Positions 2,591-21,139 of a stretch of DNA of 33,995 nt are shown piece after piece. The position numbers and the translations under genes are program-made. The stretch spans positions 1 through 33,995 of the forward strand of contig JANXUL010000308.1 of assembly GCA_025356235.1 (NCBI GenBank). Reading direction: 5' to 3'. Below the pieces are notes generated by a model. That model did not search any database, was not told the origin of the DNA, and was given only the letters and a program-made list of their open reading frames with translations. This stretch comes from Bacteroidota bacterium. Its GTDB lineage: Bacteria > Bacteroidota > Bacteroidia > Chitinophagales > Chitinophagaceae. Position 1 is the stretch's first letter; each line of letters opens with the position of its first letter.

Positions 2591-3223
2591 AAAATGTTAA
2601 TTTTAGTAGCATGTACGAACCATTTTACTAATTGGTTGGCTATCTGCTGAAAAAAATGAGAAATAAGGAACTGTTTCTGCAGGAGCACATCTTGGTAGTA
2701 AATTAAAACAAACCTAAGCGGTAAAAATATGCAGGCTGCCTCATGCCGAATCCTTATCCGACTGAGAGGGCCTGTGAATGTGTAGAACATCTTTTTAGTC
2801 AAAATCAACCTCTTCCAGCTATCATAATGCTACTCATCTTCTTTCTATGATCGGTGATAAGGTTAAATTTTGATAGCTTGCGGAACATCAAGGTAAGGCG
2901 GAACGAGGTGATTGGCGGTCGCCCGGGTAGAGGCTAACCACCCGCACCGGGTTAAGCACTTGACTAATATCTACAAGGTTGTTGCAGGCAGCACTAAGGG
3001 ATGAATGAAAGGATTTTTTGTGCCATAGTAATGTATGTAATAGCGAATAAATAATAGCCCATACTATAAAACGCCAGGTGATTGTAACGGAATTTTCCTT
3101 GTTTTTTCGGATGGGAAATTTCAGGATGATCCGAAGGGAAAGAATGCCGTAGCATACATTTTTATTCTACTTTTTTTCGATATCTTGTTAGTTATATACC
3201 TGATATGAATAATTTTCTCAATT
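2591..3223. other. Gene-free stretch at left edge of accessory island
   Basis: No supported ORF on either strand. It contains the promoter regions of the CHRD gene (minus) and of the MazG-helicase pair (plus), but no clear Bacteroidota -33/-7 pair was identified. A conspicuously GC-rich patch (about 2881-2960) sits in otherwise AT-rich DNA; its minus-strand reading gives a short peptide-like stretch that was not recognised. This may be a remnant of an earlier mobile element or gene. Confidence 0.35.
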
Positions 3224-3553
3224 ATGAGTGACACCAAGGACATAATGAATGCGCTAATTGAGTTTCGAAACGAAAGGGATTGGGAACAATTTCATAATCC
3301 AAAAGATTTGGCCATAGCCATTTCTGCCGAGGCCGGGGAGCTACTTGAGTTATTTCTGTGGAAAAAACATGATGAAGCAGATAAGGATAAAGTAAAAGAG
3401 GAGCTTGCTGATATTTTTTCATTTGCTTTTTTATTAGCAGATAAATATCAGTTTGATATAAAAGAAATTATTCTGGACAAGATTAAAATAAACAAAAAAA
3501 AATACCCCATAGAAAAGGCAAAAGGGTCAGCAAAAAAATATAATGAACTATGA
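3224..3553 (+). CDS. MazG-like nucleotide pyrophosphohydrolase
   Basis: 109 residues from ATG 3224. The all-alpha NTP-PPase (MazG/dCTPase-like) signature is present: AISAEAGELLE (residues 32-42, two metal-binding Glu in ExxE spacing) and EELADIFSF (59-67, ExxxD), preceded by an RNERDWEQFHNPKDLA segment typical of the small dCTP-pyrophosphatase-like branch. Such enzymes hydrolyse (d)NTPs to the monophosphate plus pyrophosphate; the substrate here cannot be told from sequence. The length fits the single-domain family. The stop overlaps the start of the next gene by 4 bases (ATGA at 3550), so the two are translationally coupled. Its association with a nuclease-helicase suggests a defence or nucleotide-pool role rather than housekeeping, which is inference. 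Confidence 0.92.
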   Translation: MSDTKDIMNALIEFRNERDWEQFHNPKDLAIAISAEAGELLELFLWKKHDEADKDKVKEELADIFSFAFLLADKYQFDIKEIILDKIKINKKKYPIEKAKGSAKKYNEL

Positions 3554-5409
3554 TTGTTTACCAATCGAACAAGGGTAAGTTTTTAGACGACGTTTTAACT
3601 AATGATATTGAGAATATTGTTTTAAATAATATCAAAACAAAACTTAATAGGGGCGTAAGTGTGTCTGAAATTAAATCTTGGGCAGTCTCGCTTTCATTTA
3701 TGGATCGTATTATGCGCGATCCCGAAATTCCAGAAGGTTGTGGAATAGCCATAGAGTACCAGATACCTCAAACCGGAAAGCGGATAGATTTTATAATTAC
3801 TGGACAAGGAGAAAAGAGAAACGATTGCGCTATCCTCATTGAACTTAAACAATGGTCAGAGGCTAAGCTGACTTCTAAAGATTCTATCGTAGAAACATAT
3901 GTTGGGGGTAGAATGGGTGAACACCCTCACCCTTCGTATCAGGCATGGTCTTATGCAACATTACTGCAAGGCTTTAATGAAGTTGTCTATACAGAAAATA
4001 TTGAACTGCACCCATGCGCGTACTTACACAATTATGTTGATGATGATGTTATAAAAAACGAGTTTTATTCAGAGTATATCATTAAGGCCCCCATCTTTTT
4101 AAAAAGTGATGCAGTTAAATTACGAGATTTTATTAAAAAATATGTGAAATATGGTGATGGTACCAACATTGTTTACCGAATAGAGAATGGCAAAATAAGG
4201 CCTTCTAAAATGCTTGCCGATAGTATTGGAAAAATGATTAAAGGCAATGATGAATTTGTAATGATTGATGACCAAAAAGTGGTATTCGAAAATGCAAAAG
4301 CCCTAGCCAAACAAGCCAGCCAGGGCAACAAGCAGGTATTAATTGTACAGGGTGGACCGGGAACTGGCAAGTCTGTGGTTGCGGTTAATCTTTTAGTAGC
4401 CTTAACAAAACTGGGACTTCTCGTACAATATGTTTCCAAGAATGCAGCTCCTCGGGCTGTGTATGAGGCGCGATTAACAGGAAGTATTAAACCGTCGGTA
4501 GTAAGAAATTTATTTAAAGGATCAGGATCATTTATTGACATAAATAAAAACGAATTTGATGCTTTGATTGTTGATGAAGCGCACAGATTAAATAAGTTTA
4601 GCGGCCTTTTTGGAAACCTAGGTGAGAATCAGGTTAAGGAAATTATTAACGCGGCCAAGTTCAGCGTTTTTTTTCTTGATGAAGACCAACGGGTAACACT
4701 GAAAGATATTGGACAAAAAAACGAGATTGAACATTGGGCTGATATTGCCGGAGCTACGGTTACAGAACTGGACCTTACTTCACAGTTTCGTTGCAATGGA
4801 TCAGACGGCTATCTTGCCTGGTTAGATAATATACTGCAGATAAGGCAGACTGAAAATGATGATTTAGATAATATTAATTATGAATTTACAGTAGTTGATA
4901 CACCGGCAGAATTACGAAATATTATTGTCGATAAAAATAAAACAAATAATCGTTCACGCATAGTAGCTGGGTATTGCTGGACGTGGCCAAGTAGAAAAAA
5001 CCCCAATGCATATGACATAGAATTTCCGGAATTTGATTTCAAAATGAAATGGAACCTTACAGAAGACAGCAGTACCTGGATAATAGCCCCCAATTCTGTA
5101 AATGAAATTGGCTGCATACATACTTGTCAGGGATTAGAAGTAGATTATATTGGTGTCATTGTTGGAGAAGATTTAATTGTAAGAAATGGGATGGTATTTA
5201 CTGATGAGTCGAAAAGAGCCAGTTCGGATAGCTCAGTAAAGGGCTATAAGCAGCTATTAAAAGTAGATCCGGTGAACACAAAAAAACAACTTGATTTAAT
5301 TATTAAAAATACTTACAGGACATTAATGACAAGAGGAATGAAGGGGTGTTATGTATATTTTGTAGATAAAGAAACTGCAACTTTTTTCAAATCACTAATT
5401 GGAAAATAA
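3550..5409 (+). CDS. Nuclease-helicase: PD-(D/E)xK-like domain plus DUF2075/Schlafen-group-3 helicase
   Basis: 619 residues. The N-terminal ~200 residues carry a candidate PD-(D/E)xK nuclease core: Glu69 (AIEYQ), Asp80 in RIDFII, then IELKQW with Glu98 and Lys100, and a conserved-looking HPSYQAWSY helix (127-135). An SF1-type ATPase follows: Walker A GGPGTGKS (268-275), Walker B LIVDEAHR (339-346), FFLDEDQR (motif III region), SQFRCNG, IHTCQGLEVDYIG (motif V region) and NTYRTLMTRGMKG (arginine-finger motif VI region). This matches DUF2075 proteins, whose helicase resembles that of group 3 Schlafens. The gene overlaps the MazG-like gene by 4 nt. The nuclease call is from motif spacing alone; the helicase call is firm. 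A two-gene anti-phage module is a plausible reading. Confidence 0.9.
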   Translation: MIVYQSNKGKFLDDVLTNDIENIVLNNIKTKLNRGVSVSEIKSWAVSLSFMDRIMRDPEIPEGCGIAIEYQIPQTGKRIDFIITGQGEKRNDCAILIELKQWSEAKLTSKDSIVETYVGGRMGEHPHPSYQAWSYATLLQGFNEVVYTENIELHPCAYLHNYVDDDVIKNEFYSEYIIKAPIFLKSDAVKLRDFIKKYVKYGDGTNIVYRIENGKIRPSKMLADSIGKMIKGNDEFVMIDDQKVVFENAKALAKQASQGNKQVLIVQGGPGTGKSVVAVNLLVALTKLGLLVQYVSKNAAPRAVYEARLTGSIKPSVVRNLFKGSGSFIDINKNEFDALIVDEAHRLNKFSGLFGNLGENQVKEIINAAKFSVFFLDEDQRVTLKDIGQKNEIEHWADIAGATVTELDLTSQFRCNGSDGYLAWLDNILQIRQTENDDLDNINYEFTVVDTPAELRNIIVDKNKTNNRSRIVAGYCWTWPSRKNPNAYDIEFPEFDFKMKWNLTEDSSTWIIAPNSVNEIGCIHTCQGLEVDYIGVIVGEDLIVRNGMVFTDESKRASSDSSVKGYKQLLKVDPVNTKKQLDLIIKNTYRTLMTRGMKGCYVYFVDKETATFFKSLIGK

Positions 5410-13623: not shown

Positions 13624-14040
13624 TTAAGCATGGGTGCCAATGTTAAATAGGGAACCGATATTTTCAAAGGTTTCTTTAATGCCGGTAAATGAAATGGATT
13701 TTTTGTAAAACCGTAATACTTGTAACTCCTGGGCATGCGATACTTCTATTTCGGTTCTTGATGTAGAAAATAGTAAGAACGGGATGTCTTTTACGATAGC
13801 CCCGGCGTTAAGCAATTTATCACGTAATTGAAAACCGGTTAGTTTAGGCATATTAACATCCGAAATAATAAAAAGGGGGGTTATACCGGATTCCAGTAAA
13901 AAAACAAGGGCTGCCTCTGGCTTATTAAATGTAATGATTTGGTTAGGAAAGCACAATTCAATAGCCATCTCTTTCATCAACTCGAGGTCCTCGGTGTCGT
14001 CGTCTATGAAGACGATGGGGTTACTTCTCAGGGAATCCAT
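13624..14040 (-). CDS. Single-domain response regulator (receiver only)
   Basis: 138 residues from ATG 14040 (the frame extends to a TTG at 14070, but the ATG is next to the domain start). The receiver hallmarks are all present: FIDDD (acidic cluster at 13-15), FIISDVNMP with phospho-acceptor Asp61, LLFSTS (Ser/Thr switch near 92-94) and RFYKKS (conserved Lys near 113). There is no output domain, so it likely acts as a phosphotransfer shuttle or by protein contact. Similar stand-alone receivers are abundant in Chitinophagaceae. No kinase is adjacent on this side; the kinases at 17956-20772 are the nearest candidates. Confidence 0.92.
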   Translation of the reverse strand: MDSLRSNPIVFIDDDTEDLELMKEMAIELCFPNQIITFNKPEAALVFLLESGITPLFIISDVNMPKLTGFQLRDKLLNAGAIVKDIPFLLFSTSRTEIEVSHAQELQVLRFYKKSISFTGIKETFENIGSLFNIGTHA

Positions 14041-14418
14041 AACAAGGTGTTTTAGATCTTTAATAAGCAATTACTACACAAAGATCTAGTACACAACCTG
14101 TTTAACGTTTACACATATAGGGCAAAAATTTACAAAAATCACATATTTTTTGGGTTGATGCTACAACTTTGCTTATTAGCAAATGAGCGGAAGAAGACTG
14201 TTTCTTAACAGTTGAATACATGTAACACGATACTACCCGGGCATACTACACTTGATCACCCCAAAAACAATCCCCTCATTATTTTTACGACTATTTAAAC
14301 AGGGGTTCTATAAATAATTTAGACATATGGATTTTCTGTATACTCAGGCCGGTCATTTTGAAAAAAGCGGCAGGCATATCAGAATTAATTTTGAAAAAAC
14401 AATAAAGTTGTGTAAGAA
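14041..14418. other. Gene-free stretch upstream of the receiver gene
   Basis: AT-rich region between two minus-strand genes (SET protein and receiver). A weak CCCC/GGGG hairpin with a T-rich side lies near 14255-14290 in the minus orientation and could end the SET transcript. No ORF or RNA gene recognised. Confidence 0.35.
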
Positions 14419-14838
14419 TTATTTGTAACCATCCAGCCCCTCAACAAGCTTCCCATAATCAACCAGTAATTCTTCCCCGGTGGCAATATCCCTGGTGGTT
14501 TCAAAATATTCTCCATCCAACACAGATATGATATTTGGGGTATTGGAATGGTTGAGGTAATTAACCATATCCATCACTTTACAACCATGATCGGGAATAA
14601 AATAATGCGCTTCATCATACAGATAATAAGTTTCAATGAACTCTTTGGCATGCGCAGGCAATTGCTCAGCTTCTGCTATGCTGAGTTTTATCCATCTTCC
14701 GGTATCTTTTGAAAAAACCGTTTTGCACCCTTTTGGAATATCGCAAACAGCAAAAACACCTATGCCATGTATGGGCGATGATTTGAGTGCGGCAAAAGTT
14801 TCGTTTTTTAATTCGTGAAGCAGTTCTTCTTTTGTCAT
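14419..14838 (-). CDS. Stand-alone SET-domain protein (putative protein lysine methyltransferase)
   Basis: 139 residues from ATG 14838. The three SET signatures are in order: SPIHGIGVFA (21-30; the SAM-binding GxG region), NYLNHSN (93-99; the pseudoknot NHxxxPN-type motif, with N101-P following) and GEELLVDYG (121-129; catalytic Tyr128). The length equals a bare SET domain with no pre- or post-SET zinc clusters. Eukaryotic SET enzymes methylate lysines; small bacterial versions are scattered and their substrates are mostly unknown. It has no signal peptide, so it acts in the cytoplasm. It is followed 378 bases later by the receiver gene and preceded by the GH63-like gene, with no obvious functional partner. 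Confidence 0.88.
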   Translation of the reverse strand: MTKEELLHELKNETFAALKSSPIHGIGVFAVCDIPKGCKTVFSKDTGRWIKLSIAEAEQLPAHAKEFIETYYLYDEAHYFIPDHGCKVMDMVNYLNHSNTPNIISVLDGEYFETTRDIATGEELLVDYGKLVEGLDGYK

Positions 14839-17955: not shown

Positions 17956-19530
17956 TTAAGCTGAAGGAATGATTATATTGAAAACAGCACCTTGGTTGTT
18001 GTGAACGTTGATGCTGCCGCCATGTGCCAATACAAATTGTTTTACTATGGCCAGGCCTAAACCGGTTCCACCCTGTTTATCTTTTGTAACAAAAGGGTCG
18101 AAGAGGGTCTTAAACAAGGTATCGGGGATACCAGGCCCATTATCCTTTATTGTTAATTCAATGCTTCCATCCTGCTCTTCAGCAGAAATGCGGATAAGCG
18201 GATTTGCTATCTTATTGTCGCGCAATGCTTCGGCTGCATTACTCAGGAGGTTGATGATGATTCTTTTAAATTTACTTTTATCGCCCCAAATGGAAAGCTG
18301 GTTGGGTATATCTGTCTGGACCTGTAATAAACTAAAATCCCTGATGGATGCAGAAAGGGCAATACTATCTGTAACGATTTCTTTCAAAGAAAGTTTTTGT
18401 GTTTTAACGGGCACTTCTCGAATAAAATCAAGAAAGTCATCAAATATTTCTGATGCCTGCTCCCCGCATTGATCAAGCATATCAAGCAATTCATTTTGTA
18501 TACCTTCTCCACGTAGCAGGCCAGTTAATACGGGGATATTTTTTATAGGAGACCTTAAGTCGTGCAGTAGCATACTGAGTGCGCCCCCTACGGCAGATAA
18601 TTTTTCCTTTTCAAGTAGTTTAGCCTGTAGCTCAGCATTACGGATAACCTTGGCGGCACTTTGTACAAAAAGTTTTAGCAGGTAAAGTTTTTCTGTTTTT
18701 AACCGGATATTTTTTTTCAGCGCGGTAAATACAACATAATTTTCCATTTTTGCAAACACAAGTTCATCTACCTGGATGATTTCTTCAGATGAGTTGCGAC
18801 TGGCAGTTTCGATAATAGTTGCCAGTTGTTCCTGGTTAAGTTTTTCTTCGCCCACTCCAATGGAAAAGATCTTTTCATAACTGCCATCTTTATGCAGCTT
18901 TCCCAATAAGGCCATATCTGTTTGCGTATAGCCTGCAATCTGGTCAAGGATGTTTTTTAGCAATGAGTTAAGATGGTGTTCGGCCAGATTTATATTGGAA
19001 ATAGCAAAGAGAAGGTGTTCCAAGTTACGCAGTTTGTTGTAATCGTCAACGGCTTTGGTAGCCAGTTGTATAATCTCATCGGCTGCATAGGGTTTACAAT
19101 GGTAGCCTACGTTTTGTCCGGCTTTGGCAACAATATCTTCAATACTTGTATCACTGTATGCTGTTATAAATATAATCTCTGCTTTGGTATCTGCCTCCCT
19201 GATGTGCGTGGCGGTTTCCAATCCATCCCATCCGGGCATCCGCATGTCAAGAAAAATAACGGCGTAGGGCCCGTTGGCGGTAATGGATTGTTTTACTTTT
19301 TCAAACCCCTCTTTTCCATTCGCAGCTTTATCAACGGTGAATTTGGGTATATAGCTGTTCCTGGACCCTAATAAAGGCCTCTCTGCTTCTTCACCAAAAA
19401 GGATACTTGAAGCCTGTTTTACCTGTTCATTTGTTTTGATTGGCGGGATGAGGATTTCCTCAATATTATCCCGCACCATTTCCTCATCATCAATGACCAA
19501 TACCCGGGTATTTATGTTTTCTGTTTGCAT
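17956..19530 (-). CDS. Hybrid receiver-histidine kinase
   Basis: 524 residues from ATG 19530. Order: receiver (1-155) with VLVIDDEE, phospho-acceptor Asp95 in FLDMRMPG, Thr123 in FITAYS and Lys146 in HCKPY; an unidentified GAF-like middle region (~165-300); a HisKA-like helix with LLHDLRSPIK (His323); and a HATPase with INLLSNAAEAL (N-box), DNGPGIP (463-469), FDPFVTKDKQGGTGLGLAIV (G2). The receiver has an extra ~30-residue segment between its first two strands (around 28-62). No membrane segments, so it is cytoplasmic. The receiver at the N-terminus means it takes phosphate or a signal from an upstream kinase, most simply the product of the preceding gene, whose stop is 3 bases away. It has no DNA-binding output of its own. 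Confidence 0.93.
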   Translation of the reverse strand: MQTENINTRVLVIDDEEMVRDNIEEILIPPIKTNEQVKQASSILFGEEAERPLLGSRNSYIPKFTVDKAANGKEGFEKVKQSITANGPYAVIFLDMRMPGWDGLETATHIREADTKAEIIFITAYSDTSIEDIVAKAGQNVGYHCKPYAADEIIQLATKAVDDYNKLRNLEHLLFAISNINLAEHHLNSLLKNILDQIAGYTQTDMALLGKLHKDGSYEKIFSIGVGEEKLNQEQLATIIETASRNSSEEIIQVDELVFAKMENYVVFTALKKNIRLKTEKLYLLKLFVQSAAKVIRNAELQAKLLEKEKLSAVGGALSMLLHDLRSPIKNIPVLTGLLRGEGIQNELLDMLDQCGEQASEIFDDFLDFIREVPVKTQKLSLKEIVTDSIALSASIRDFSLLQVQTDIPNQLSIWGDKSKFKRIIINLLSNAAEALRDNKIANPLIRISAEEQDGSIELTIKDNGPGIPDTLFKTLFDPFVTKDKQGGTGLGLAIVKQFVLAHGGSINVHNNQGAVFNIIIPSA

Positions 19531-19533
19531 AGG

Positions 19534-20772
19534 TTATATTTTAAAATGTGCAATGGCTTCGGCCCCCATTCCGGTACCCCCACTTTTTAAAATCAAACGG
19601 CCATCATGGCTTTCAATAATAGAGCGGCAGTTAGCCAGCCCCAAACCATTACCTTCTGTTTTGGTGGTAACACCCCGAGTAAAAAGTTTTGGCAGAACAT
19701 CCGGGTCAATGCCAGCCCCCGTATCTTTAATAATAACTTCCAGCTCATCGTTTTCTACCCTTGCCACAATATCAATCTGCCTGGTATGGCTTTCGCCAAT
19801 GACAATACTTTCCGCAGCATTTTTCAGGAGGTTCAAAAATACCTGCATTAAGCGTGTTTTATCGCCAATAATTAATGGCAGGTCAACAGGGATATTACTT
19901 TGAACTATAATATTCCTTTTATGAAGGGTTGGCATAAGCATGGAGAAACAATCGTTTACGATATTGCGAATACTCACTTTATCCCTGATGGTGCTTTCCT
20001 GTCCCCTGATATACTGTCGTTGTATGTTTAGTATTTCGGAAATATGTGTAACAATATTCATCTGCTCCCCCAATGATTTATTTAATTCTTCCTTACTTTT
20101 TTTTTGATTCAATATTAATCCATCAAGCAGGTCAAGCAAAGCCTGTGTTTTCGTTTCCCCAAAAATGGGGATAAGCTGCGGCTGCTGTTTGCGAAAAAAA
20201 TTTTCAAGGTTTATAAGTGTATCATGGTCATATTCTAATAGATGTCTTTTAACCCGCGTAAGGTATGAGCCAAACCCTACCACTGCATTGCCAATATCGT
20301 GCAGTATGTTGGATGCCATTTCAAACTTACTTTTCTCAACTGCCTGGTCGTGCAGTACCTGGTTTATTTTTCTTTCCCGTTCGTAAAATTCTGTAATATC
20401 ATCAAACATAAAACTGAGGGAGTTGGCGTCAATTTTATTTACGGTGAAAAAAAAATGCCTTGTGTCGCGGGAGTCTTTTTTTCTCAGGTCTATTCCATAA
20501 TTTTCTTGCAGTACTATGTTGCCGGATTCTTTATTAAATGCCCTAACCACAGCGGCAAACCCGGGTAACATTTTATCAAGCAGAGATAGTATGTTATTGG
20601 CATCGGCTAACTCATAATGCATAAAAAAGGGCATTAATAACTGTACCCCTTTTGCATTTATTTGTGTAATGGCACCGGATAAATCCGACTCAACCAAACC
20701 CACAGGTATCTGATGGATGATACTGAGCATTTTCTGTACCTGCTTTTGCATGGCGGCCGTATCGTTCATCAT
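19534..20772 (-). CDS. PAS-domain histidine kinase
   Basis: 412 residues from ATG 20772 (two tandem ATGs). An N-terminal PAS domain (about 10-130; IIHQIPVGLVESDLSGAITQINAKG through FMFDDITEFYERE) leads through a coiled linker to an atypical dimerisation helix with SNILHDIGNAV (His158) in place of the common H-E-x-R-x-P. The HATPase is complete: FLNLLKNAAESI (N-box), DTGAGIDPDVL (G1) and TEGNGLGLANCRSI (G2), ending HFKI. There is no membrane segment, so the input is cytoplasmic. It starts 4 bases after the PYP-like gene and ends 3 bases before the hybrid kinase gene, so the three are almost certainly one transcript. Its own PAS domain could pair with the stand-alone PYP domain. Confidence 0.93.
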   Translation of the reverse strand: MMNDTAAMQKQVQKMLSIIHQIPVGLVESDLSGAITQINAKGVQLLMPFFMHYELADANNILSLLDKMLPGFAAVVRAFNKESGNIVLQENYGIDLRKKDSRDTRHFFFTVNKIDANSLSFMFDDITEFYERERKINQVLHDQAVEKSKFEMASNILHDIGNAVVGFGSYLTRVKRHLLEYDHDTLINLENFFRKQQPQLIPIFGETKTQALLDLLDGLILNQKKSKEELNKSLGEQMNIVTHISEILNIQRQYIRGQESTIRDKVSIRNIVNDCFSMLMPTLHKRNIIVQSNIPVDLPLIIGDKTRLMQVFLNLLKNAAESIVIGESHTRQIDIVARVENDELEVIIKDTGAGIDPDVLPKLFTRGVTTKTEGNGLGLANCRSIIESHDGRLILKSGGTGMGAEAIAHFKI

Positions 20773-20776
20773 TTTT

Positions 20777-21139
20777 TCAGCGTTTTTTAACCAAGAGGTA
20801 CTGATGGGAATGCCCCACTGATTTAAGCAGGCGTAACCTCACTTTTGTTGGTTGGGTAACATACGTAAACATGTAATCCATCTCTTCATCCACATCCGGC
20901 GAGTTGTATTTTTCTGCCACCATAAAATTATTAGTACATGGCGCTACTCCTGTAAAAAAATGTTTGCCAATTGCATTTTCGGTAGCAACGCCTGCAATGT
21001 CAGACTCGGCTTTATTATAGGCAACGATGATACCGTCTGTGGTCATTTTTACCAAACCAAATGGGAGGCTGTTATAGACCTGGTCACCTTGTTCTTCAAG
21101 CCAGGCAATTATGTTAACAGAAGAAAATTCGGGAGACAT
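20777..21139 (-). CDS. Photoactive yellow protein homologue (PYP-type PAS domain)
   Basis: 120 residues from ATG 21139, the same size as the classical 125-residue PYP. Aligning by eye to Halorhodospira PYP gives LPFGLVKMTTDG for LAFGAIQLDGDG, AYNKAESDIAG for QYNAAEGDITG, IGKHFFTGVAPCTN for IGKNFFKDVAPCTD, and MFTYVTQPTKVRL for TFDYQMTPTKVKV, ending in VKKR. The chromophore triad is kept at a constant offset of one: Tyr41 (PYP Tyr42), Glu45 (Glu46) and Cys68 (Cys69, thioester to p-coumarate). Thr50 and Arg52 are replaced by Ala and Val, and there is a 4-residue gap after the Cys loop. It heads an operon with two kinases and likely provides their sensory input. Whether it binds chromophore cannot be read from sequence. 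Confidence 0.92.
   Translation of the reverse strand: MSPEFSSVNIIAWLEEQGDQVYNSLPFGLVKMTTDGIIVAYNKAESDIAGVATENAIGKHFFTGVAPCTNNFMVAEKYNSPDVDEEMDYMFTYVTQPTKVRLRLLKSVGHSHQYLLVKKR

Follow-up and report, generated by a model that had tools for sequence, protein, structure and literature searches.

A photoactive yellow protein homologue heading a two-kinase operon in Bacteroidota, and a candidate PAS partner domain encoded beside one half of its family

Photoactive yellow protein (PYP) is a model photoreceptor. We analysed a stretch of 33,995 nucleotides from a Bacteroidota bacterium of the Chitinophagaceae (contig JANXUL010000308.1 of assembly GCA_025356235.1; this whole stretch is termed the window), in which the gene for a PYP homologue (pyp) heads an operon that also encodes two histidine kinases, termed HK1 and HK2. 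Relatives of the N-terminal PAS domain of HK1 are encoded next to pyp throughout much of one half of the PYP family, and this domain is our candidate for a dedicated receiver of the PYP signal.

One paper on PYP names its signal chain an important gap (PMC12826048), and another calls the signalling route of single-domain PYPs unknown (PMC9664959). The lists of the former comprise 984 PYPs and 113 operons; HisKA/HATPase is present in 17 and GGDEF in 29, and the HisKA/HATPase genes are said to lie mostly upstream of pyp, unlike in the window. The PYP of Halorhodospira halophila resembles the window protein in its fold, its Tyr/Glu/Cys pocket, its single domain and, as we infer for the window protein, its thioester-linked chromophore. 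Its operon, however, is pyp-pCL-TAL (PMC12826048), whereas the window operon encodes kinases and has neither pCL nor TAL. In Ppr of Rhodospirillum centenum PYP controls a histidine kinase (PMC12826048), as proposed here for the window, but in Ppr it is fused into a PYP-phytochrome-kinase protein, whereas in the window PYP is separate and a PAS domain sits on the kinase. Clade C PYPs (Xing et al., 2022; PMC9664959) are found mostly in Proteobacteria, especially Burkholderiales, beside GGDEF/EAL genes, in contrast to the two kinases that form the output in the window. They are poorly characterised and have been proposed to modulate the adjacent GGDEF protein (PMC9664959).

A shared PAS domain beside pyp is not mentioned in the available parts of PMC12826048 and PMC9664959. 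A word search of the main texts of these two papers, as far as available, for Spirosoma, Mucilaginibacter, Sphingobacteri- and Flavobacteri- found none of these names; Spirosoma is listed in a table of PYP species elsewhere (PMC6273459). A literature search of titles and abstracts, in a library with few subscription journals, likewise found nothing on a shared PAS beside pyp, and an earlier description is possible. With its two kinases, the operon is a variation on pyp operons already known; what is new is the candidate partner domain.

The window PYP and its two kinases

The pyp gene (20777-21139, minus strand) encodes a protein of 120 residues, which an earlier note on this DNA, made from its letters alone, had described as PYP-type. 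A phmmer search of the PDB with this protein recovers 33 sequences, all from PYPs, from the PYP part of Ppr or from PYP-derived tags (best E-value 4.4e-16). The profile TIGR02373 (photo_yellow) gives 82.2 bits, compared to 16.9 bits for the generic PAS model, and thus favours PYP above an ordinary PAS domain, as the note had claimed. Since the protein does not reach the equivalog threshold of TIGR02373 (143.05 bits), it is not assigned to that narrow model, which is reported to recognise just 20% of the PYP homologues that a BLAST search recovers (PMC9664959). When its AlphaFold2 model (pLDDT 89.6) is submitted to Foldseek, the first 40 ranks are taken by PYP, Ppr-PYP or PYP-derived structures (the top one with a TM-score of 0.89), and other PAS domains follow past rank 40 with TM-scores of ~0.6. 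The window protein is a PYP: in sequence as well as in fold it resembles PYP more closely than it does other PAS domains.

Tyr41, Glu45 and Cys68 of the window protein align with Tyr42, Glu46 and Cys69 of PYP. Alignment and codons (TAT at 21017-21019, GAG at 21005-21007 and, for the chromophore thioester site, TGT at 20936-20938, all on the minus strand) confirm the register given in the note. The PYP family is defined as PYP homologues with Cys69 (PMC9664959); the window protein has this residue as well as the equivalents of Tyr42 and Glu46. The equivalents of Tyr42 and Cys69 are kept in all 25 close copies identified below, so that Cys68, whose conservation the note had proposed as a check, is constant among close relatives, and Glu46 is kept in 23. 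The remaining two copies, both PYPs beside kinases (L040:6001-6360 and L147:7136-7495), naturally have Gln at this position; in Halorhodospira PYP the same substitution has been studied as mutant E46Q (PMC9664959). The equivalents of Thr50 and Arg52 are indeed absent, as the note had pointed out, and are replaced by Ala and Val. However, the consensus residues of the family are Ala50 and Leu52 (PMC12826048), so that this is an ordinary substitution rather than a special loss; at position 50 the close copies have Thr in 20 cases and Ser in four, next to the Ala of the window. Known PYPs absorb in the range of 432-465 nm (PMC12826048).

The genes for HK1 (412 residues; 19534-20772, minus strand) and HK2 (524 residues; 17956-19530, minus strand) follow pyp on the same strand after gaps of 4 and 3 nt, respectively, just as had been read from the sequence. 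HK1 consists of an N-terminal PAS domain (residues 1-135; 20368-20772, minus strand), a DHp region with the motif LHDIGNAV and a full ATPase (HATPase_c, E-value 3.4e-20). There is no Pfam HisKA match at an E-value of 0.1, but His158 within the motif (20299-20301, minus strand), the predicted phospho-acceptor, is His in 11/11 HK1 sequences. The designation of HK1 as a PAS histidine kinase therefore stands for the kinase part. The PAS part is not recovered by Pfam, whose best PAS match, on residues 1-135, is below the cut-off (E-value 0.18), yet the AlphaFold2 model predicts PAS-like strands and helices, then a long helix, in front of the kinase core. The domain arrangement in this model is unsure, given a pTM of 0.41 and a pLDDT of 78.7. 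Foldseek ranks LOV kinases first by E-value; the VIA-align list, in which PDB kinases match HK1, mainly concerns residues 145-412 and says little on the PAS domain. LOV histidine kinases (4gcz, SB2F1) share the PAS-helix-kinase layout predicted for HK1, but the sensor proposed for HK1 is the separate PYP.

HK2 has an N-terminal receiver (Response_reg, 56.5 bits, residues 63-156), a middle region, a HisKA match just below its cut-off (26.4 compared to 26.9 bits) and a HATPase_c domain (83 bits, residues 416-522 of 524). The receiver residues D14, D15, D95, T123 and K146 are invariant in 4/4 sequences, as is His323; Asp95 (19246-19248, minus strand) is the predicted receiver phospho-site and His323 (18562-18564, minus strand) the predicted phospho-acceptor. 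HK2 thus combines receiver and kinase core as the note had it, but with the receiver at the N-terminus it is not a classical hybrid kinase. Judged by their sequences, HK1 and HK2 are histidine kinases, with a predicted phospho-acceptor His and HATPase_c in both. The GC content of the pyp cassette is like that of its surroundings, so that composition does not support a recent transfer.

A PAS domain encoded directly after pyp

A contig scan found three relatives of the window PYP, in Mucilaginibacter flavus (L040), a Bacteroidia metagenome-assembled genome (MAG; L041) and a Winogradskyella MAG (L042). The phylum search gave matches in 42/395 genomes at an E-value of 0.001, 13 of them below 1e-20 (the window genome, genome G753 and 11 classic-type genomes) and 29 weak, and the class search in 3/395 at 1e-8, the window genome being counted in both. 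In the family of G753, PYP is found in 16/222 genomes with 20 copies, and in that of M. flavus in 2/251 (query genome counted). In the family of the window genome itself, TIGR02373 matches in 26/394 genomes, with a best E-value of 1e-5 apart from the own copy. In total, this yields 25 close PYP copies in 21 genomes.

The order PYP-HK1-HK2 recurs in six Bacteroidota loci (type I: the window, L040, L041, L042, L144 and L147), with 2 to 10 nt between pyp and HK1. On the strength of this order, whose conservation had been proposed as a check, a chance operon was rejected. A ligase gene follows in all but the window. L041 and L042 also encode an aromatic lyase with a YHLATGVG motif; the best PDB match of the L041 lyase is 2o6y, whose entry title gives it as a putative histidine ammonia-lyase and which we take to be the Rhodobacter tyrosine lyase. 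The 17 type II loci, with 19 PYP copies, all lie in the family of G753. Directly 3' of pyp, nine of them have an intact gene, sharing 1 or 4 nt with pyp, for a small PAS protein that is homologous to residues 1-135 of HK1. In five no small PAS gene was seen after pyp. In the other three (L131, L139 and L143) decayed PAS genes adjoin pyp, which indicates that the partner can vanish while pyp persists. A ligase belongs to the pyp gene run in 15/17 type II loci and in 20/23 loci overall.

We then looked for this domain with a profile (A6) of 14 rows, all from Bacteroidota. Among the 222 genomes of the G753 family, A6 matches 15 at an E-value of 1e-6. The ten strongest matches (E-value <1e-40) are all neighbours of PYP and come from nine of the 16 genomes that encode it, but they are ten of the profile's own 14 rows. 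For this reason the co-occurrence count is circular, and its Fisher p-values (4e-12 and 3e-10) were discarded. There is no further strong match in the 222 genomes; the remaining matches beside PYP are remnants in G1295 and a third locus of G1307, and five PYP-free genomes have weaker ones (1e-16 to 1e-22) at the N-terminus of HK1-HK2 pairs. Residues 5-139 of the window HK1 match the profile at 2.6e-52, and when 100 genomes closely related to that of the window were searched, its own copy was the sole match, the window being a profile row in both cases. The partner PAS gave no match in phages. A profile comparison of the HK1 PAS with PYP aligns 26 columns only (probability 68). Q44 and F123, present in 15/15 PYP-linked but 0/5 other PAS domains of Bacteroidota, were considered as marks of the PYP-linked domain and dropped, as proteobacterial domains keep Q44 in 4/9 and F123 in 1/9 cases (by eye).

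An independent test of the PYP-PAS linkage is provided by proteobacterial plasmids. Relatives of the window PYP are found in 13 of 72,556 plasmid records, and in 11 of the 13 a diguanylate cyclase gene, mostly annotated as 'sensor domain-containing diguanylate cyclase', directly follows pyp. The N-terminal domain of these cyclases is the partner PAS: A6 matches it with E-values of 1.6e-18 to 8e-24 (1517 ORFs, 46 loci), and six residues (P, G, N, P, P, D) are identical in 23/23 aligned partner domains. The domain thus occurs in three contexts, at the N-terminus of HK1, free-standing after pyp or on a diguanylate cyclase after pyp. The reverse search, in which the domain itself was the tblastn query, led back to the same plasmids. 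The Sphingomonas domain matches 11 records (13 places), the Caballeronia domain the same 11, the window HK1 PAS six records (seven places) and the free PAS nine (ten places), the last two at E-values up to 0.01, and every record matched by any of the four queries is among the 13 that bear pyp. As controls served two generic PAS domains of the window genome, of which one matched 652 plasmid records (12 of them listed) and the other five records, none of these five being among the 13 with pyp. By coordinates, 12 of the 13 places of the Sphingomonas query lie directly after pyp; the second Rhizobium tumorigenes plasmid was placed by search coordinates only, and the second place in SBC2 derives from the Caballeronia query. 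The two pyp records without partner are those of Niveispirillum and of a Comamonadaceae plasmid.

Two further observations concern these plasmids. In Caballeronia M1242, which has the remaining one of the 13 places, A6 also matches the gene that comes after the diguanylate cyclase gene in the pyp operon. The partner PAS is thus present twice in this operon, once on the diguanylate cyclase and once on the cyclase/phosphodiesterase encoded behind it (L166:5688-7574). The Caballeronia SBC1 and SBC2 plasmids (L163, L170, L171) and Indioceanicola (L162) carry both PYP types on one stretch: a classic pyp adjoins a ligase gene, and a partner-linked pyp is accompanied by a cyclase gene.

A tree of 50 PYP rows separates into two halves with support of 100/99, although it is midpoint-rooted, its bootstrap had yet to converge completely and in places it joins long branches. 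Half 1 (15 rows) comprises Halorhodospira, classic plasmid PYPs and other PYPs of the Bacteroidota phylum (families f36, f48 and f51); we take f36, as a guess, to be Salinibacter-like. Half 2 (35 rows) comprises the window PYP and the cyclase-linked plasmid PYPs. A partner PAS directly 3' of pyp is found in 29/35 rows of half 2, three remnants counted, but in 0/15 rows of half 1; for Halorhodospira the neighbours were taken from PMC12826048 instead of from our scan. At the chromophore Cys, the pattern CxNNxx[VI]A is present in 35/35 rows of half 2 and 0/15 of half 1. The window PYP has both marks of the proposed PAS-linked half, as it reads CTNNFMVA and its partner PAS, recovered by single-sequence tblastn, lies 3' of pyp; the segment NNFMVA after the Cys codon (20915-20932, minus strand) is a candidate contact surface. 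The ten proteobacterial rows of half 2 all keep Glu46 and Cys69, and have Tyr42 in eight cases and Phe in two. Half 2 probably includes clade C, going by the gene neighbours described for that clade in the available part of PMC9664959. The type I rows lie outside the 19-row type II group (100/99), so that the free PAS may have arisen from HK1 by shortening, a reading for which the root is insecure.

Tree labels refer to the partner directly 3' of the given pyp, with remnant loci L131, L139 and L143 counted as having one. The tandem copies of L132 and L133 both take the label of their locus. The first Indioceanicola pyp was counted as without partner, the second pyp with its partner lying three genes on, and the label of L171, set ahead of the HMM scan, was confirmed by it. 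The 11 classic-type regions (L075-L085) have 13 PYP ORFs, of which the trees include 10. Left out were one L075 ORF of three, those of L077 and L082, the C-terminal PYP-like domains of larger ORFs, and genomes G534 and G585 of the phylum search. Such larger proteins are encoded next to pyp in f36 genomes (L075:14267-17629, L075:5780-7624, L076:3809-5458, L077:3033-6092, L078:6199-9408 and L079:6229-7920), some of which have several pyp copies. A kinase with a C-terminal PYP is mentioned in PMC12826048.

Chromophore supply

The earlier note had proposed a search for p-coumarate genes. The window genome has two such genes, on contig C192 (L086): a lyase that scores 818.9 bits with the FlxA model (cut-off 700) and a ligase that scores 648.4 bits with the FlxY model (cut-off 520). 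They belong to a flexirubin-type cluster, whose neighbouring genes look, by eye, like ketosynthases, a ketoreductase and dehydratases. In Chitinophaga pinensis, FlxA was assayed as a tyrosine ammonia-lyase and FlxY as a 4-coumarate-CoA ligase (PMC3992019). With FlxA and FlxY present, p-coumaroyl-CoA is probably available in the window strain, by analogy to C. pinensis. The known role of these enzymes is in pigment synthesis; use of their product for the window PYP would be an additional one.

Three ligases of the relatives were tested against models, and their best one is TIGR02372, 4-coumarate--CoA ligase (169-208 bits, below the cut-off of 334.7), the alignment to which begins at residue 36-40. 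Near the N-terminus, 20/20 ligases have a [GN]x[DN]S motif (15 by pattern, five by eye), and in five ligases PF00550 is above its cut-off in two, below it in two and absent in one. A fusion to an acyl carrier protein was considered as a peculiarity of these ligases and rejected, since a similar motif is present in 5/5 proteobacterial pyp ligases looked at.

Proposed signalling pathway and alternative readings

We consider it fairly probable that the three gene products form a two-kinase pathway for blue light, leading from PYP via the HK1 PAS domain and His158 to Asp95 of HK2, each transfer being deduced rather than observed. PYP would probably be loaded on Cys68 with p-coumarate supplied by FlxA and FlxY and, to go by what is known of the family, would absorb blue light and change its shape. 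The changed PYP would then act on the N-terminal PAS domain of HK1, the presumed dedicated PYP receiver, as the linkage to pyp suggests. From the anatomy of the kinases, this would set autophosphorylation of HK1 at His158, the phosphate would pass to Asp95 in the N-terminal receiver of HK2, and this receiver would tune the HK2 kinase core and a response regulator. The note had guessed at PAS-PAS pairing, which has gained independent comparative support, because the HK1 PAS is the very module encoded beside this half of the PYPs; chromophore loading, PYP-PAS contact, light response and phosphorelay continue to be inferred. The earlier reading is right on the facts and probably also on the idea, and of the refuting conditions given in the note, none of those examined went against it.

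For the family, sequence comparison makes it somewhat better than an even chance that the PYPs of half 2 signal through one dedicated PAS receiver encoded 3' of pyp, and not by free diffusion to varied partners. The receiver would be joined to kinases or cyclases or serve as a free adaptor, CxNNxx[VI]A would be part of the contact, and PYP and PAS would form a natural, exchangeable two-piece blue-light switch. As the partner PAS is free or joined to a diguanylate cyclase in relatives, one PYP-PAS switch would serve several outputs.

Several results weigh against this interpretation. Six of the 35 half-2 PYPs have no partner and three more have remnants only, and in Proteobacteria the domain search covered plasmids only. 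Moreover, neighbouring genes are in themselves no proof of contact between their products. HK1-HK2 pairs headed by a diverged PAS exist without PYP in five genomes (L153-L157; G1163, G1185, G1204, G1197 and G1294). In the midpoint-rooted HK1 and HK2 trees the PYP-linked kinases do not form one group, L041 and L042 are the far branch and the PYP-free pairs are interspersed, which suggests that PYP was lost or gained more than once. L154 was omitted from the HK2 tree, since its HK2 is divided between the ORFs 3163-3525 and 3549-4718. As to the chromophore, the window operon lacks the ligase seen in the pyp run of most loci, and the ligase of the relatives is absent from the window genome by a single-protein search and by a five-row profile, whose full-length hits in the other five genomes searched are its own rows. 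Finally, the aromatic lyase family has no match in two genomes with both PYP and the ligase, G753 and G1103, so the chromophore source is not general.

PYP and PAS might be separate inputs, one for light and one for a ligand, that share an operon without touching, with PYP possibly acting elsewhere. The PYP-free pairs, whose PAS is presumably used otherwise, and the half-2 PYPs without partner fit this explanation. We nevertheless consider it unlikely, since the PAS remains beside pyp while joined to varied outputs, its plasmid relatives all lie in pyp-bearing records, and a free PAS with no output of its own directly follows pyp in nine loci. Somewhat less likely still is a protein that is PYP-shaped but not photoactive here, being free of chromophore or responding to another ligand or a redox signal. 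No ligase adjoins pyp in the window and none like those of the relatives is found by profile in the genome, and the TIGR02373 score lies well below its cut-off (82 compared to 143). However, Tyr, Glu and Cys are all retained, FlxA and FlxY are present, and, as stated above, this model covers only a fifth of the PYP homologues.

The PAS domain might instead handle the chromophore, carrying p-coumarate or delivering it to PYP. The order pyp-PAS-ligase in 8/9 free-PAS loci and the overlap of pyp with the PAS gene speak for such a role, but the domain takes the usual N-terminal input position in kinases and cyclases, and the Halorhodospira operon pyp-pCL-TAL has no PAS (PMC12826048), which makes this very improbable. 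Hardly any weight remains for an ordinary PAS domain with a chance resemblance to PYP. Weak generic PAS matches below the cut-off agree with it, but it is contradicted by residue conservation and was rejected on the strength of the PDB, TIGR02373 and Foldseek results.

A single-domain receiver-like protein encoded in the window (13624-14070, minus strand; 27.8 bits, below the Pfam cut-off) could be a target of HK2. Its gene and that of a SET-domain protein (14419-14838, minus strand) lie past a glycosidase gene downstream of HK2, a distance that argues against one operon.

A candidate receiver common to kinases, cyclases and free adaptors offers a possible answer to how free-standing PYPs signal. 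If true, it would account for the presence of PYP beside such different outputs and would provide a two-piece optogenetic switch, and in Bacteroidota the loading of PYP would be tied to the synthesis of flexirubin pigment.

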